Shown piece by piece: positions 20,671 to 37,622 of a stretch of 64,000 nucleotides of DNA; the stretch's first letter is position 1; every line of letters starts with the position of its first letter. Position numbers and translations under genes: made by a program. The notes under the pieces were generated by a model. It made no database searches. It saw only the letters and a program-made list of their open reading frames with translations, and had not been told where the DNA came from. The stretch is from Buttiauxella gaviniae (GTDB lineage: Bacteria; Pseudomonadota; Gammaproteobacteria; Enterobacterales; Enterobacteriaceae). The stretch is taken from the NCBI RefSeq assembly GCF_040786275.1, contig NZ_JBFMVT010000002.1, forward strand, positions 248,001 to 312,000. The letters are read 5' to 3'.

Positions 20671-21612
20671 TTAGTAGCCGTGATGCAAAGAGACCTGGCC
20701 GCCTGGGTTTTCACCGTTTTCGATTTGGCGGATCGTTTTCGCAATGTATTCCATCGCTTCTTGCGGACGCGTAACCGCTGCCAGATGCGGCGTTATGGCG
20801 ATGCGAGGATGCTTCCATAACGGACTATTCGACGGGAGAGGTTCCTGGGCAAACACATCGAGCATCGCGCCTTTCACTTTGCCGCTCTCAAGGGCTGCCA
20901 GCAGATCGCTTTCCACCAGATGCACACCACGGGCGAGGTTCATAACAAAGGCTTCATCTGCCAGTTGATTCAGCAGGCGGCTATTAATAATCCCCACGGT
21001 TTGCGGCGTATTCGGCAGCAGATTGATTAACACGCGTGTGCCGCTGAGAAAATCACTCAGTTGTTCATCACCGGCAAAGCTGGTTATGCCCGGGTAATCT
21101 TTTTTGCTTCGGCTCCAGCAGCGCACCGGGAAACCCCATGCCGCGAGGCTTTCAGCCACTTTACCGCCCAACACGCCCGCGCCGAGGACACCAATCGTAA
21201 AATCTTCCCGGCGATAATCTTCCAGCGGCTGCCATTTTGCCTGCTGTTTTAGTGCCTGGTAATCATCAAAGCGGCGGAACCAGTGGAGCACCTGGCTTAC
21301 GGCGTATTCCTGCATTTGCAGCGCCATGCCGGTATCTTCAAGACGAAACAGCGGGACACCGTTTGGCAGCATATCGGGATGAGCCTGAAGTTTGCTGAGG
21401 ATAGAATCCACACCTGCTCCTAAAGCAAAGACCCCTTTTAGCGTCTGACGCCCGCTAAGCATTTCGACCGGAGGATGCCAAACCAGCGCGTAGTCGGCAG
21501 GTTGGTTGTCTCCAGGATGCCACTGGCGAACGTTGGCACCGGGAAGTTGCTGCTGCATACCCTCCAGCCAGGTTTGCGTGTCAAAGGTGGGGTGGTGAAA
21601 AATAATCTCCAT
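20671..21612 (-). CDS. ghrA: Glyoxylate/hydroxypyruvate reductase A
   Basis: NADPH-dependent 2-hydroxyacid dehydrogenase of 313 residues (E. coli 312). The nucleotide motif is [13 protein letters not shown] (about 140-152), the catalytic Arg sits in NLARGVHL, a Glu in FAQEPLP, and the His in [11 protein letters not shown]. It reduces glyoxylate and hydroxypyruvate. First gene of the ghrA-ycdX-ycdY-ycdZ series. It reads away from the tRNA-Ser genes, as in E. coli. Confidence 0.95.
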
Positions 21613-21818: not shown

Positions 21819-21906
21819 GGTGAGGTGTCCGAGTGGCTGAAGGAGCACGCCTGGAAAGTGTGTATACGGCAACGTATCGAGGGTTCGAACCCCTCTCTCA
21901 CCGCCA
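21819..21906 (+). tRNA. serX: tRNA-Ser (GGA), first copy
   Basis: 88-nt class II tRNA with a long variable arm and encoded CCA. Anticodon GGA is at 21853-21855, and the T-loop is GGTTCGAACC. It differs from E. coli serX at only a few positions in the T-arm and acceptor stem. It lies beside ghrA, as serX does in E. coli, a known island integration site. Confidence 0.97.
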
Positions 21907-21918
21907 CATTTTAAGAAG

Positions 21919-21948
21919 AGCTCGTATGCAAATACGGGCTTTTTTTTC
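21919..21948 (+). terminator. Terminator after the first tRNA-Ser
   Basis: Nine-bp stem AGCTCGTAT/ATACGGGCT with loop GCAA and eight T. A near copy, with compensated changes, follows the second tRNA-Ser gene. Confidence 0.85.
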
Positions 21949-21961
21949 GCCCGTAACCCGT

Positions 21962-22087
21962 GGAGAGACGGGTGAGAACCCTCGACCCGAGGTTCGACAA
22001 ATGCTTTAGCATTTGGACGTCAGGGGCGCTTGCGTCCATGACGCCCGCAGGGCAAGCGCAGCGCAGTCAGCCCCTCTCTCACCGCCA
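21962..22087 (+). repeat. RtT-like repeat, copy 1, ending in the tRNA-Ser 3' end
   Basis: 126-bp unit starting GGAGAGACGGGTGAG and ending with the last 17 bases of the tRNA gene plus CCA (CCCCTCTCTCACCGCCA). Internal hairpins are visible: CCTCG/CGAGG, AAATGC/GCATTT and GGGCG/CGCCC. The layout (structured repeat after a tRNA, closing with a copy of its 3' end) is that of the rtT repeats of E. coli tyrT. Assignment to the Rfam RtT family is from memory. Confidence 0.75.
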
Positions 22088-22101
22088 CATTTCAAGAGAA
22101 A

Positions 22102-22129
22102 GTCTGAATTCACGTTCAGACTTTTTTTT
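22102..22129 (+). terminator. Terminator after RtT-like copy 1
   Basis: Stem GTCTGAA/TTCAGAC with loop TTCACG and eight T. The same terminator follows copies 2 and 3, which suggests each repeat unit is a separate transcript end. Confidence 0.85.
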
Positions 22130-22143
22130 CGCCCGAAACCCGC

Positions 22144-22269
22144 GGAGAGACGGGTGAGAACCCTCGACCCGAGGTTCGACAAATGCTTTAGCATTTGGAC
22201 GTCAGGGGCGCCTGCGACCATGACGCCCGCAGGGCAAGCGCAGCGCAGTCAGCCCCTCTCTCACCGCCA
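22144..22269 (+). repeat. RtT-like repeat, copy 2
   Basis: Tandem copy at a 182-bp period from copy 1, nearly identical. The few differences include GCCTGCGACC for GCTTGCGTCC in the loop of the third hairpin. It ends with the same tRNA 3' segment and CCA. Confidence 0.75.
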
Positions 22270-22283
22270 CATTTCAAGAGAAA

Positions 22284-22311
22284 GTCTGAATTCACGTTCA
22301 GACTTTTTTTT
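22284..22311 (+). terminator. Terminator after RtT-like copy 2
   Basis: Same GTCTGAA/TTCAGAC hairpin and T-run as after copy 1. The promoter of the second tRNA-Ser gene begins about 60 bases later. Confidence 0.85.
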
Positions 22312-22371
22312 CGCCCGTAACCCTGCATCGTTCATACCTTAACCGAACGGTACACAAACAGAAGATTAAAC

Positions 22372-22400
22372 TTGACCGAATGCGGTCGTATCCCTATAGT
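22372..22400 (+). promoter_or_regulatory. Promoter of the second tRNA-Ser gene
   Basis: TTGACC and TATAGT with 17-bp spacing, then AGCGCCCC, a GC-rich discriminator. Apart from the immediate leader CAAAACGG before the tRNA it is not a copy of the first promoter, so the second gene is independently driven. Confidence 0.75.
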
Positions 22401-22441
22401 AGCGCCCCGTTGCCCCCAGATGTTGGCAGCAGAAACAAAAC

Positions 22442-22529
22442 GGTGAGGTGTCCGAGTGGCTGAAGGAGCACGCCTGGAAAGTGTGTATACGGCAACGTAT
22501 CGAGGGTTCGAACCCCTCTCTCACCGCCA
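22442..22529 (+). tRNA. tRNA-Ser (GGA), second copy
   Basis: 88 nt, identical base for base to the copy at 21819, with CCA encoded. E. coli has a second tRNA-Ser(GGA) gene (serW), but far from serX; here the two lie about 620 bp apart. Confidence 0.97.
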
Positions 22530-22541
22530 CATTTAAAGAAG

Positions 22542-22571
22542 AGCTCGCATATCAATGCGGGCTTTTTTTTC
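22542..22571 (+). terminator. Terminator after the second tRNA-Ser
   Basis: Stem AGCTCGCAT/ATGCGGGCT and eight T. The paired change from the first copy (GTAT/ATAC to GCAT/ATGC) keeps the stem intact. Confidence 0.85.
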
Positions 22572-22584
22572 GCCCGAAACCCGT

Positions 22585-22710
22585 GGAGAGACGGGTGAGA
22601 ACCCTCGACCCGAGGTTCGACAAATGCTTTAGCATTTGGACGTCAGGGGCGCTTGCGTCCATGACGCCCGCAGGGCAAGCGCAGCGCAGTCAGCCCCTCT
22701 CTCACCGCCA
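22585..22710 (+). repeat. RtT-like repeat, copy 3
   Basis: Third 126-bp unit after the second tRNA, identical over most of its length to copy 1 (GCTTGCGTCC loop). It closes with the tRNA 3' segment and is followed by the GTCTGAA hairpin with one change (TTCAGGC) and a shorter T-run at 22725-22751. Confidence 0.75.
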
Positions 22711-22784
22711 CATTCCTAGAGAAAGTCTGAATTCACGTTCAGGCTTTTTTTCGCCCAAAATTCATCAACCGCCCCCGCAAAGCA

Positions 22785-22820: not shown

Positions 22821-25800
22821 TTAATCCGATTTACGCTTACTAAATCGCTCTCGTATCACGACAAAGAACACCGGTACAAAGAAGATAGCCAGCAATGTCG
22901 CTGACAACATCCCGCCCATGACCCCCGTCCCGACAGCGTTTTGCGCCCCGCTCCCGGCCCCACGGCTTAATACCAGCGGCATTACCCCCAGAATAAACGC
23001 CAGCGATGTCATCAGAATTGGCCGCAGACGCATGCGCACCGCATCGAGCGTGGCTTCAATTAAGCCTTTGCCCTCTTTTTCCATCAGATCCTTCGCGAAT
23101 TCCACAATCAAAATTGCGTTTTTCGCCGACAGGCCAATCGTCGTCAGCAGCCCGACCTGGAAATAGACGTCATTATTCAAACCGCGCATCGCAGCGGCGA
23201 CTAATGCCCCAACCACGCCCAGCGGCACCACCAGCATCACCGAGAACGGTATCGACCAGCTCTCATAAAGAGCCGCCAGACACAGGAACACCACCACTAA
23301 CGAGATAGCGTATAGCGCCGGGGCCTGGTTTCCAGAAAGCCTTTCCTGATACGACATGCCCGTCCAGTCATAGCCAATCCCGGACGGCAGCTTAGACGCC
23401 AGTTGCTCCATAAGCACCATCGCCTCACCGGTACTTTTCCCCGGAGCCGCCTCGCCCAGCAGTTCCATGGATGGCAAACCGTTGTAGCGCTCAAGGCGCG
23501 GCGATCCGTACATCCAATGGGAGGAAGAGAAAGCCGAGAGCGGCGCCATCTGCCCGTTACTGCTGCGCACATACAGATTATTAATATCCTGCGGCAACAT
23601 GCGAAAACGCGCATCCGCCTGCACATACACCTTTTTCACACGCCCGTGATCGATAAAGTCGTTCACATAGGTGCCGCCCAACGCGCTGGCAATGGTCTGG
23701 TTGATATCCGCAAGGCTAATCCCCAGGGACTGCGCTTTTTCCTGATCGATTTCCAGCTTGTATTGAGGGGTGTCCTCAAGCCCATTCGGGCGCACACGCG
23801 TCAACATATCAGGATGTTTTGCCACCATGCCCATCAGCTCATTACGCGCACTGGTTAGCTGCTGATGGCCGAGGTTTGCCTGGTCGATCAGTTCAAAGTC
23901 AAAACCGGTGGCTGTACCCAGCTCCATAATGGCGGGTAAGTTAAACGGGAAGACCAGGCCATCACGAATTTTGCTGAAGGCTTTGGTGGCGCGTTCAACG
24001 ATGGCACCCACAGCGTTCTCCTTGCCGGAGCGTTCATCCCAGGGTTTCAGGCTAATAAACGCAATCCCGGAGTTTTGCCCCTGCCCGCTGAAGCTAAAAC
24101 CGTTAACGGTAAACACCGATTCAACGTTGGCCTTTTCGGTATCCAGATAATAATGCGTTACCTGGTCGAGCACTTTTTGCGTTCTTTCCTGGGTCGCACC
24201 CGCAGGAAGTTGCACCATGGTCATAAACACGCCCTGGTCCTCTTCGGGCAGGAATGAGGTAGGCAGACGCAAAAATAACACCGCCATCCCAACGACAATA
24301 ATCAGGTACAGCAGCAGATAGCGCCCGGTACTGCCTAAAATATTGCTGACGCTGTCGGTGTAGTGATGAGCGCTTTGGTTAAATTTATTGTTAAACCAGC
24401 CGAAGAAACCGGTTTTTTCATGGGTTTGGGAATCGATTGGTTTAAGCAACGTCGCGCACAGGGCAGGCGTCAGAATCAACGCCACCAACACGGAGAGCGC
24501 CATCGCCGAAACAATAGTTATTGAGAATTGACGGTATATTGCCCCGGTTGAACCGCCAAAGAAGGCCATCGGAATAAATACCGCCGACAGCACCATGGCA
24601 ATCCCCACCAGCGCGCCCTGAATCTGCTCCATCGATTTTTTGGTGGCTTCTTTCGGGGAAAGATGATCTTCGACCATCACGCGCTCGACGTTTTCTACCA
24701 CCACAATTGCATCGTCGACCAGCAGGCCAATCGCCAGCACCATACCAAACATGGTGAGGGTATTGATCGAATAACCAAACGCAGAAAGAACGGCGAATGT
24801 CCCCAGTAAAACAACCGGCACCGCAATGGTGGGAATTAATGTCGCACGCAGATTTTGCAGGAAGAGATACATCACCAGGAAGACCAGGATGATGGCCTCA
24901 AACAGCGTTTTCACCACTTCATGGATGGATATCTTCACAAAGGGGGTGGTGTCGTACGGGTAAACGATTTTCATCCCTTGCGGGAAGTAAGGCTGTAACG
25001 AGGCCAGTTTTGCTTTTATACCGGCAGCGGTATCCAGCGCATTCGCCCCTGTAGCAAGCTTAATACCTAGGCCTGCTGCGGCCTGCCCGTTAATCTTCGC
25101 CACCGTATTGTAGTTTTCACCGCCCAACTCAATACGTGCCACGTCGCTTAAATGCACCACCGAGCCATCCGGGTTCACTTTCAGCGTCACTTTGCCAAAC
25201 TCAATCGGGTCGCGTAAACGTGTCTGGGCAATGATAGATGCGTTAAGCTGCTGATTTTTAACCGCAGGCGTGCCACCTAATTGCCCGGCGGCAACCTGGT
25301 CGTTTTGCAATTTCAGTTGATTAACCACATCACCGGGGTTGAGCTGGTATTTATTCAACGCATCCGCATTAAGCCAGATACGCATCGCATACTGCGCACC
25401 AAATAGCTGAACATCCCCTACCCCGTTGGTTCGGCTAATCGCATCTTTAATGTTGGATGCCACATAGTCGGAAATATCATCCTGGGTAAGGTTGGGGTTA
25501 TCAGAAATAAACCCGGCCACCAGCAAGAAACTGTTCGATGATTTCTCAACGCTAATCCCCTGCTGCTGGACTTCTTGCGGCAGCAACGGCATCGCCAACT
25601 GCAATTTATTCTGCACCTGAACCTGAGCGATATCCGGGCTGGTGCCTGATTTAAAGGTCAGAGTGATCGTCACGCCACCCGCAGAATCACTGGTGGAAGA
25701 CATGTACATCAGGTTATCGATGCCGTTCATATTCTGTTCGATAACCTGGGTTACGGTGTCCTGCACCGTTTGAGCGTCCGCGCCTGGGTAGGTCGCCGTC

Positions 25801-25934
25801 ACCGCAACAGCCGGAGGCGCAATCGTCGGATACTGGGCGACAGGCAACTGGAGGATCGCAAGTGCACCGGCAATCATCAAAATGATCGCCAGTACCCAGG
25901 CAAAAATTGGTCGTTCAATGAAAAACTTAGCCAT
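22821..25934 (-). CDS. acrF: RND multidrug efflux pump, AcrF-like (second pump of operon)
   Basis: Proton-driven inner-membrane drug exporter, 1037 residues with twelve transmembrane helices and two large periplasmic loops. The relay residues are present: the Asp pair in [14 protein letters not shown] (about 405-418) and the Lys in [12 protein letters not shown] (about 940). It closely resembles E. coli AcrF/AcrB from [17 protein letters not shown] onward. It starts 12 bp after the adaptor gene, the usual acrE-acrF arrangement. The partner outer-membrane channel is presumably TolC, not encoded here. Confidence 0.92.
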
Positions 25935-36833: not shown

Positions 36834-37622
36834 TCAGTCGTAGGCATTCAACGTGCGCTGGCAAAGGGCTGAGCGCACACAATCTTGTTTGCCAAAACGA
36901 ACGATACCGACCATTTCATCCTCTTCAAAACGCGCCAGAGCGTCGCTCAGACCGGACTGTACGCCGCGTGGCAAATCACATTGCGTGATATCGCCATTGA
37001 CGATGACCGTTACGTTTTCCCCGAGACGAGTTAAGAACATCTTCATTTGCGCGGCGGTGACATTCTGCGCCTCGTCAAGAATAACCACCGCATTTTCGAA
37101 GGTACGTCCGCGCATATAGGCGAACGGCGCAATCTCTACTTTGCCAATTTCGGGACGCAGACAATACTGCATAAAAGACGACCCTAAACGACGCACCAGG
37201 ATGTCATACACTGGGCGGAAATAAGGGGCGAATTTTTCCGAAATATCCCCGGGTAAGAAGCCGAGATCTTCGTCAGCTTGCAGGACCGGTCGGGTCACAA
37301 TTATCCTGTCGACATCCTTATGTATCAGGGCCTCTGCGGCTTTCGCCGCGCTGATATAGGTTTTGCCGCATCCAGCTTCACCGGTGGCGAATATCAGCTG
37401 CTTTTTCTCGATGGCATTAAGATAGTGCTCCTGAGCCTCATTTCGCGCAGCTATTGGGGAGTTATCACGGCAATCTCTTGCCATACCGATAGATTCTACG
37501 CCGCTCATCTGCACAAGCGTGGTGACCGATTCCTCTTCGCGTTGCCGATGGCTGCGCGAATCCCGTCTCAGCACACGTTTTGCTTCACGACGAGCTTTGA
37601 TCACTGCTTTCTGTCTTCCCAT
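36834..37622 (-). CDS. phoH: PhoH family ATPase
   Basis: Phosphate-starvation-inducible ATP-binding protein with a helicase-like P-loop core, cytosolic. From ATG 37622 it has 262 residues, including Walker A ATGEAGCGKT, Walker B VVILDEAQN and a conserved VNGDITQCDLPRG. AAGGTG precedes this ATG. The frame stays open upstream to 37901, which would give 355 residues, close to the 354 quoted for E. coli PhoH. I chose the start of the conserved domain, but the longer form cannot be excluded. Confidence 0.88.
   Translation of the reverse strand: MGRQKAVIKARREAKRVLRRDSRSHRQREEESVTTLVQMSGVESIGMARDCRDNSPIAARNEAQEHYLNAIEKKQLIFATGEAGCGKTYISAAKAAEALIHKDVDRIIVTRPVLQADEDLGFLPGDISEKFAPYFRPVYDILVRRLGSSFMQYCLRPEIGKVEIAPFAYMRGRTFENAVVILDEAQNVTAAQMKMFLTRLGENVTVIVNGDITQCDLPRGVQSGLSDALARFEEDEMVGIVRFGKQDCVRSALCQRTLNAYD

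Follow-up and report, generated by a model that had tools for sequence, protein, structure and literature searches.

Two identical tRNA-Ser(GGA) genes on the forward strand of the window (the whole stretch of 64,000 nucleotides of Buttiauxella gaviniae that was analysed) are interleaved with three repeat units of the RtT/TLR kind, each ending in a copy of the 3' end of the tRNA. The locus is a real feature of a known family, correctly seen in the preliminary description, and its kind is not new. The units share one anatomy and have tails identical to the end of the tRNA; among relatives, arm and tail tend to vary with the local tRNA and the units are inherited by tRNA type. Such units are probably structured small RNAs of the tRNA 3' trailer, which would arise by terminator read-through and be cut at the tRNA-like tail; for this organism we infer the read-through, the processing and the released RNA. 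Judged by sequence comparison, new here are the tendency of the arm to follow the tRNA, the wide range of the family and the presence of GGA loops outside the window's family. No account of a left arm following the tRNA, or of the family outside Gammaproteobacteria, was found in the literature searched, which covered few subscription papers. The features of the locus are the following.

20671-21612, - strand: flanking open reading frame, presumably ghrA according to the gene order of E. coli
21756-21784, + strand: promoter-like site TTGACG-17-TACATT, 5' of tRNA-Ser gene 1 (consensus match 9/12; no proof of function)
21819-21906, + strand: tRNA-Ser(GGA) gene 1 (ARAGORN; RF00005, 48.4 bits)
21890-21906, + strand: source segment, the 3'-most 17 nt of tRNA 1 (exact pattern search)
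21913-21946, + strand: terminator-like hairpin and T run, 3' of tRNA 1 (fold, z -4.4)
21951-22087, + strand: RtT/TLR unit 1 (RF00391, 36.1 bits, E 4.4e-5, under the gathering cut-off of 45)
21960-21972, + strand: unit 1 left arm (A), complementary to its own tail (MFE fold; inverted repeat with the 3' part of the tRNA; covariation in relatives)
21988-21997, + strand: unit 1 arm C, like the 5' strand of the tRNA T-stem plus TTCGA (sequence; comparison across relatives)
22071-22087, + strand: unit 1 tail (D), copy of the tRNA 3' end including CCA (exact match)
22094-22129, + strand: terminator-like hairpin 3' of unit 1 (fold, z -5.5)
22133-22269, + strand: RtT/TLR unit 2 (RF00391, 34.8 bits; tail 22253-22269)
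22276-22311, + strand: terminator-like hairpin 3' of unit 2 (36-nt sequence identical to that after unit 1)
22372-22400, + strand: promoter-like site TTGACC-17-TATAGT, 5' of tRNA-Ser gene 2 (consensus match 10/12; no proof of function)
22442-22529, + strand: tRNA-Ser(GGA) gene 2 (ARAGORN; last 17 nt 22513-22529)
22537-22570 (approximate ends), + strand: terminator-like hairpin 3' of tRNA 2 (sequence by eye; direct repeat)
22574-22710, + strand: RtT/TLR unit 3 (RF00391, 36.0 bits; tail 22694-22710)
22718-22751 (approximate ends), + strand: terminator-like hairpin 3' of unit 3 (sequence by eye; direct repeat)
22821-25934, - strand: flanking open reading frame

The two tRNA genes predicted by ARAGORN are identical over 88 nt, as had been described from the letters. 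Two units follow gene 1 and one follows gene 2; they start 45, 227 and 45 nt 3' of a tRNA-Ser on the same strand, and their starts are spaced by 182 bp (units 1 and 2) and 441 bp (units 2 and 3), in line with the tandem pair of 182-bp period reported earlier. The near-identity attributed to the three units also stands (133, 136 and 134 of 137 positions for the pairs 1-2, 1-3 and 2-3), but not the length of 126 bp, since RF00391 gives 137 nt for each. An A-rich/T-rich hairpin was recognised by eye after each tRNA and each unit, which agrees with the terminator previously placed behind each unit, and two of these five hairpins were folded (z = -4.4 and -5.5). The consensus terminator scan listed none of the five on the + strand and, on the - strand, gave one site overlapping the hairpin behind tRNA 2; no promoter-like site inside the units was listed by the consensus scan. 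Elsewhere in the window, positions 36839-37032 (+) strongly match Ysr251 (RF02855), a Yersinia sRNA of Rfam (173.5 bits, cut-off 100). A layout like that of the window, with two tRNA-Ser(GGA) genes and two units between them, is encoded in Serratia marcescens NZ_CP042515.1; this record is labelled as a plasmid, and ghrA lies close by with one transporter gene intervening. The record is possibly a chromosomal piece.

All three units end in CCCCTCTCTCACCGCCA, i.e. the last 17 nt of tRNA-Ser(GGA) with the CCA included, exactly as first read. A search of the complete 4.76-Mb genome returned this 17-mer five times, namely in both tRNAs and all three units, which excludes chance; the reversed pattern is absent from the same 4.76 Mb. 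The copy is limited to 17 nt by tRNA nt 59, which is A in the tRNA and G in the units, and nt 58 matches again.

The likeness to RtT proposed in the preliminary description is supported by the covariance model RF00391, which aligns over positions 1-130 of 130 in all three units with significant E-values of 4e-5 to 9e-5 (1-kb search), although the scores (36.1, 34.8 and 36.0 bits) lie under the curated cut-off of 45 bits. In the same genome, twelve RtT matches were obtained at E up to 10, four of them above the 45-bit cut-off, and all twelve sit in tRNA loci (Tyr, Lys/Val, Pro, Ser(GGA), Arg(ACG) and an Arg-His-Leu-Pro cluster). At two tRNA-Pro loci of this genome (L022 and L029), a unit breaks off inside its core, downstream of an intact terminator and left arm; the broken unit is the second one in L022 and the sole one in L029. 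In E. coli strains g94 and 25403, the orthologous units behind serX are labelled RtT sRNA, an annotation that carries no expression evidence, and three RtT-like units follow serX in MG1655 (NC_000913.3, 1097565-1097652 region), unannotated in its own record.

The tRNA-linked repeats of E. coli were first described in 1978; K-12 has 22 of them, distributed over ten loci (Rudd 1999 as cited in PMC8144298). Each is identical at its 3' end, over 18-19 bp, to the tRNA or rRNA that precedes it, and those of tRNA operons are still without known function according to PMC8144298. The window units share with them the position after a tRNA, a 3' end identical to that of this tRNA, the presence of one to several repeats per locus and, as in rrnB, a terminator that separates the RNA gene from the repeat; they differ in that their tail copy has 17 nt instead of 18-19 and in that they are interleaved with two tRNA genes, each with its own promoter-like site. 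With RtT (RF00391) and RttR of tyrT they share the whole-length covariance match, the GAGAACC, GGTTCGA and CCC..AGGG motifs and the CCA end, but they score 34.8-36.1 bits against the 45-bit cut-off, and their first hairpin is of a Ser type (GACAAA...TTTG) instead of GAGCG..AGCGAG. As for RrA, RrB and RrF after 5S rRNA (PMC8144298), the repeat lies between two terminators and is expected to require read-through, but the window units have no GGA loops. A likeness of rtT to BIME repeats, as possible attenuators, has also been reported (PMC2965389).

The ending in a tRNA 3' segment, given as known from tyrT in the preliminary description, turned out to be general. The 204 RF00391 matches listed in 49 genomes were mapped to their loci, 199 of them with and five without an upstream tRNA on the same strand. 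Among these matches, the tail copies the local upstream tRNA over at least 14 nt in 155 of 199 units from 41 genomes, and the copy has 18 or 19 nt (tRNA nt 58/59-76, i.e. starting in the T loop) in 146 of 199, as compared with 17 nt in the window; none of the 155 tails shares more than 8 nt with a tRNA for another amino acid. The source tRNAs of the RF00391 tails are Lys, Tyr, Ser(GGA, TGA, CGA), Pro(TGG, CGG, GGG), Arg(ACG), Glu and Gln. Among the 51 imperfect tails of the matches listed, nt 59-68 are intact with nt 69-76 altered in 19, the reverse holds in 13 and both parts are altered in 19; on average, these units match the tRNA with an identity near 0.9 over nt 59-65 and near 0.65 over nt 69-76, a profile biased toward nt 59-65 by the placement of imperfect tails, which gave the inner part extra weight.

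The family extends well beyond Enterobacterales. RF00391 matches at E up to 0.001 were found in 33 of 60 genomes of the window's family (among the matches listed) and in 21 of 119 genomes of the order; at E up to 1e-4, 37 of 299 genomes of the phylum have one. In a family of another class (f52), the tails copy Ser, Gln and Asp tRNAs, with a 19-nt match in 12 of 18 loci read. Furthermore, a census with a pattern of three conserved motifs, which is independent of the tail and of the tRNA position, gave at least 136 genome-contig matches, and 119 of the 136 listed fall within 900 nt downstream of a tRNA on the same strand. Among the matches listed, 71 have a 14-20-nt tail match (Ser, Lys, Tyr, Gln, Arg, Asp, Val, Pro and Phe tRNAs), a number that does not count six matches of 24 nt, which are probably the next true tRNA gene. 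The titles listed include two Kiritimatiellae bins (Arg, Ser), Verrucomicrobia (Ser), Deltaproteobacteria (Ser), Betaproteobacteria (Ser) and a Polarisedimenticolaceae bin (Gln); many matches are metagenome bins, some of whose labels may be wrong, and those without a tRNA, e.g. Glycomyces and Gemmatimonadetes, may be due to chance. Altogether, ten amino acids are represented among the source tRNAs in the loci read.

The left end of a unit resembles a reverse-complemented copy of the local tRNA that covers the T arm and part of the acceptor strand, and in which TGAG mostly takes the place of TTCG. This left arm is complementary to the part of the tail that corresponds to tRNA nt 59-68, and it pairs with the tail in the MFE structure of all three window units. 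Among the matches listed, 143 distinct units were compared by alignment: in 92 the left arm aligns better to the local tRNA than to any tRNA for a different amino acid, in 24 there is a tie and in 27 the local tRNA is beaten, Arg units losing in six cases out of seven. By duplex energy, the own tail is strictly the best partner in 63 of 108 units of the matches listed (Pro(CGG) 0/9, Arg 0/2); the 35 of 143 distinct units without a readable arm motif were excluded from this comparison and from the one within tRNA types. In the latter, an arm fits its own tail better than a diverged one in 191 of 348 comparisons among the matches listed, equally well in 130 and worse in 27, these comparisons sharing ancestry and thus not being independent. 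The arm-tail pairing rate, among the matches listed, is 0.83-0.90 at nt 59-65 and falls to 0.62 at nt 68 and 0.35-0.37 at nt 70-72. These data suggest that the left arm tends to change along with the tRNA, both between and within tRNA types, and weakly so for Arg and Pro. A retroviral-like primer copying was considered and dropped, as the best stretch of the arm lacks a CCA complement in nearly every example shown and extends beyond nt 58; nt 59-76 is the usual primer-binding length of retroviral-like priming.

The complementarity of the left arm to the tRNA, together with an early report on tyrT cited in PMC8144298, would also fit an arm acting as a trans antisense to the tRNA and tuning the stringent response. 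The own tail is nevertheless a nearer pairing partner for the arm, and later work assigned the tyrT phenotype to a reading frame close by (PMC8144298), so that this antisense role is extremely improbable. The withdrawal of the starvation claim for tyrT also counts against a strong role of the RNA in general, as does a table of an sRNA screen in which RttR has 97 +/- 9% and the other columns are empty (PMC4606813).

Covariation in RtT, with a tandem GA motif, had been noted earlier (PMC7657543, PMC8250186). An alignment was made of 39 dissimilar non-Ser units, eight of 47 non-redundant units (six Arg, one Lys, one Tyr) being excluded. The RNAalifold consensus fold of this alignment contained four pairs only, probably because of gaps, and was replaced by a named structure and counts of pairs. 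In the named structure of 33 pairs, 87.7% of cells are paired versus 77.4% in shuffled and 31-40 in slid controls, and 134 cells are altered on both sides versus 46 in shuffled ones, none of 500 shuffles reaching either value; the structure was named from the same 39 sequences, a choice that gives it an advantage over the slid controls. Alternative pairings also fit the 39 units: the pairing of arm C with the tail (T-arm, core in the loop) accounts for 82.7% of cells, with one of five pairs altered on both sides, and that of arms A and B for 82.5%. Given that every arm is similar to the T-stem of the tRNA, a switch between the two foldings is conceivable.

The transmission of the units was followed with their cores. 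Among the matches listed, all 121 cores are nearer to a unit from another genome that follows a tRNA for the same amino acid than to any unit of another tRNA in their own genome (142 of the 155 good units were cut to the core and 121 had both comparators; ties would count, and the comparison did not extend to units that follow other tRNAs in other genomes). Mobile spread between the tRNAs of one genome, a candidate explanation, is unsupported by this result. The preliminary description had suggested a spread by recombination through the tRNA 3' end; the varying copy number among E. coli strains fits recombination within an array, but, given the core result (121/121 among the matches listed), movement between tRNAs is old or rare.

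The copied block, nt 58/59-76, has the same extent as the direct repeats that flank many tRNA-located islands, and the tails could be read as attachment-site remnants of elements integrating at tRNA 3' ends, or as decoys, i.e. spare targets that protect the tRNA. Eight viral contigs carry the motif pattern. In five of them (L305, L307, L308, L309 and L311 of IMG/VR), a tRNA 3' fragment starting with GGTTCGAATCC and ending in CCA lies directly upstream of the RtT units, with no whole tRNA within 900 nt, as if prophages separated the tRNA from the units; the remaining three show neither feature. In these five contigs the prophage seems, from its arrangement, to have used the tRNA itself and left the units intact, and an insertion at the tRNA that spares the units speaks against the tails as integration targets. 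No element inserted at a tail copy was seen among the eight contigs, within the stretches read, the window units have no match in 50,697 phage records, and the cores, as described above, follow the tRNA type. We therefore regard remnants or decoys as very improbable.

A more serious competitor for the structured trailer RNA is that the units are passengers, i.e. tandem repeats gained and lost through recombination between short direct repeats, whose likeness to the tRNA is maintained by gene conversion and whose RNA is under no selection for a function. Indeed, the copy number is unlike among close E. coli strains, with three serX units in MG1655, four in g94 and two in 25403. A serX unit used as query has a near match in 3724 of 5426 E. 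coli genomes (3328 over at least 80% of its length) and none in 1702, so the repeats look dispensable and labile, which counts against the RNA reading; one to five matching places were found in each of 60 listed genomes (the last seven with fragments only) and up to 12 in the collection, these places not being exactly equal to units. A 175-bp VNTR in rtT RNA is also listed between Salmonella serovars (PMC2658671). Moreover, among the matches listed, perfect 18-nt tails are commoner in internal units (41/46) than in last ones (21/36; p = 0.0018) and occur in 85 of 116 single units, six of the 204 matches being dropped; a loss of tails that is commoner in last units would be odd if each unit needed its CCA, and it counts against processing at the tail. 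Against the passenger reading, the arm, tail and core hairpin pairs covary far above shuffled or slid controls, and the left arm tracks changes of the tRNA without being its direct copy, which is hard to explain by direct copying alone. Passengers are thus possible, but on the doubtful side.

A binding of CsrA to the units, like that of the rRNA-linked RrA/B/F of E. coli, was also weighed. GGA hairpin loops are enriched outside the window's family: per unit they number 1.00 versus 0.24 in shuffled sequences in the remote class (16 units, nine with one), 0.97 versus 0.25 in other named taxa (29 units among the matches listed, 14 with one), 0.79 versus 0.15 in other families of the order (14 units, seven with one) and, mildly, 0.41 versus 0.19 in Enterobacterales genera (17 census units among the matches listed); the census counts cover 46 of the 71 units with 14-20-nt tails among the matches listed. 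This signal could partly be due to GNRA-like loops. In the window's family, by contrast, GGA loops are depleted (0.07 versus 0.16 shuffled in 111 units, and 0 versus 0.19 in its 17 Ser units, among the matches listed), none of the three window units has the GGA hairpin loops of RrB, and 19 tRNA-linked members of E. coli were given less than 0.01 by a predictor of CsrA sponges (PMC8144298). Of the 26 RtT genomes examined for it, 24 encode CsrA, which has little weight as CsrA is common in these groups. In the genome of the window, csrA lies just upstream of a Ser(GCT)/Arg(ACG) tRNA cluster that bears two RtT-like units (G000:C2:881477-882848). A CsrA-binding role of the units is highly improbable. 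A wider and rather speculative version, which we consider unlikely, is that RtT/TLR is an old RNA family of several phyla that re-tailors arms and tail to its host tRNA, and whose original job, tying CsrA activity to tRNA output, would have been kept in E. coli by the rRNA-linked copies.

If the units are structured RNAs of the tRNA trailer, as we favour, each tRNA-Ser of the window would be transcribed from its own promoter and the majority of transcripts would end at the first terminator, while read-through transcripts would include one or two units, each followed by a separate terminator. In E. coli, the rRNA-linked members are produced by read-through of terminator T1 (PMC8144298). In the folded RNA, the left arm would pair with the inner tail (tRNA nt 59-68), the second hairpin and the core hairpins would stack inside the arm-tail helix, and the outer tail (nt 69-76, ending in CCA) would be largely unpaired. 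As the tail reproduces the 3' end of the tRNA, the enzymes of tRNA 3' cleavage and trimming could act at the tail too and release each unit. The idea, already in the preliminary description, that the units offer a CCA-like end to tRNA-processing enzymes is plausible and has already been proposed, with RNase E as the enzyme (PMC8144298). In E. coli, the annotated 3' end of rttR (171 nt) falls exactly at the CCA of the first unit behind tyrV, and the 173-nt form of RrB ends 3 nt beyond its repeat (PMC8144298). Northern signals were obtained for the RtTs of Actinobacillus (PMC4986893), and an upregulation of the RtT sRNA in the cold was reported in Thioalkalivibrio (PMC8092127). The two Actinobacillus RtTs are placed upstream of tRNA genes in PMC4986893, which counts against the trailer reading.

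The most natural guess is that the released RNA couples something to tRNA output, and a protein partner is suggested by the GGA loops found outside the window's family. Should an RNA function be confirmed, many bacteria would have tRNA genes accompanied by a small RNA in amounts that track tRNA synthesis.
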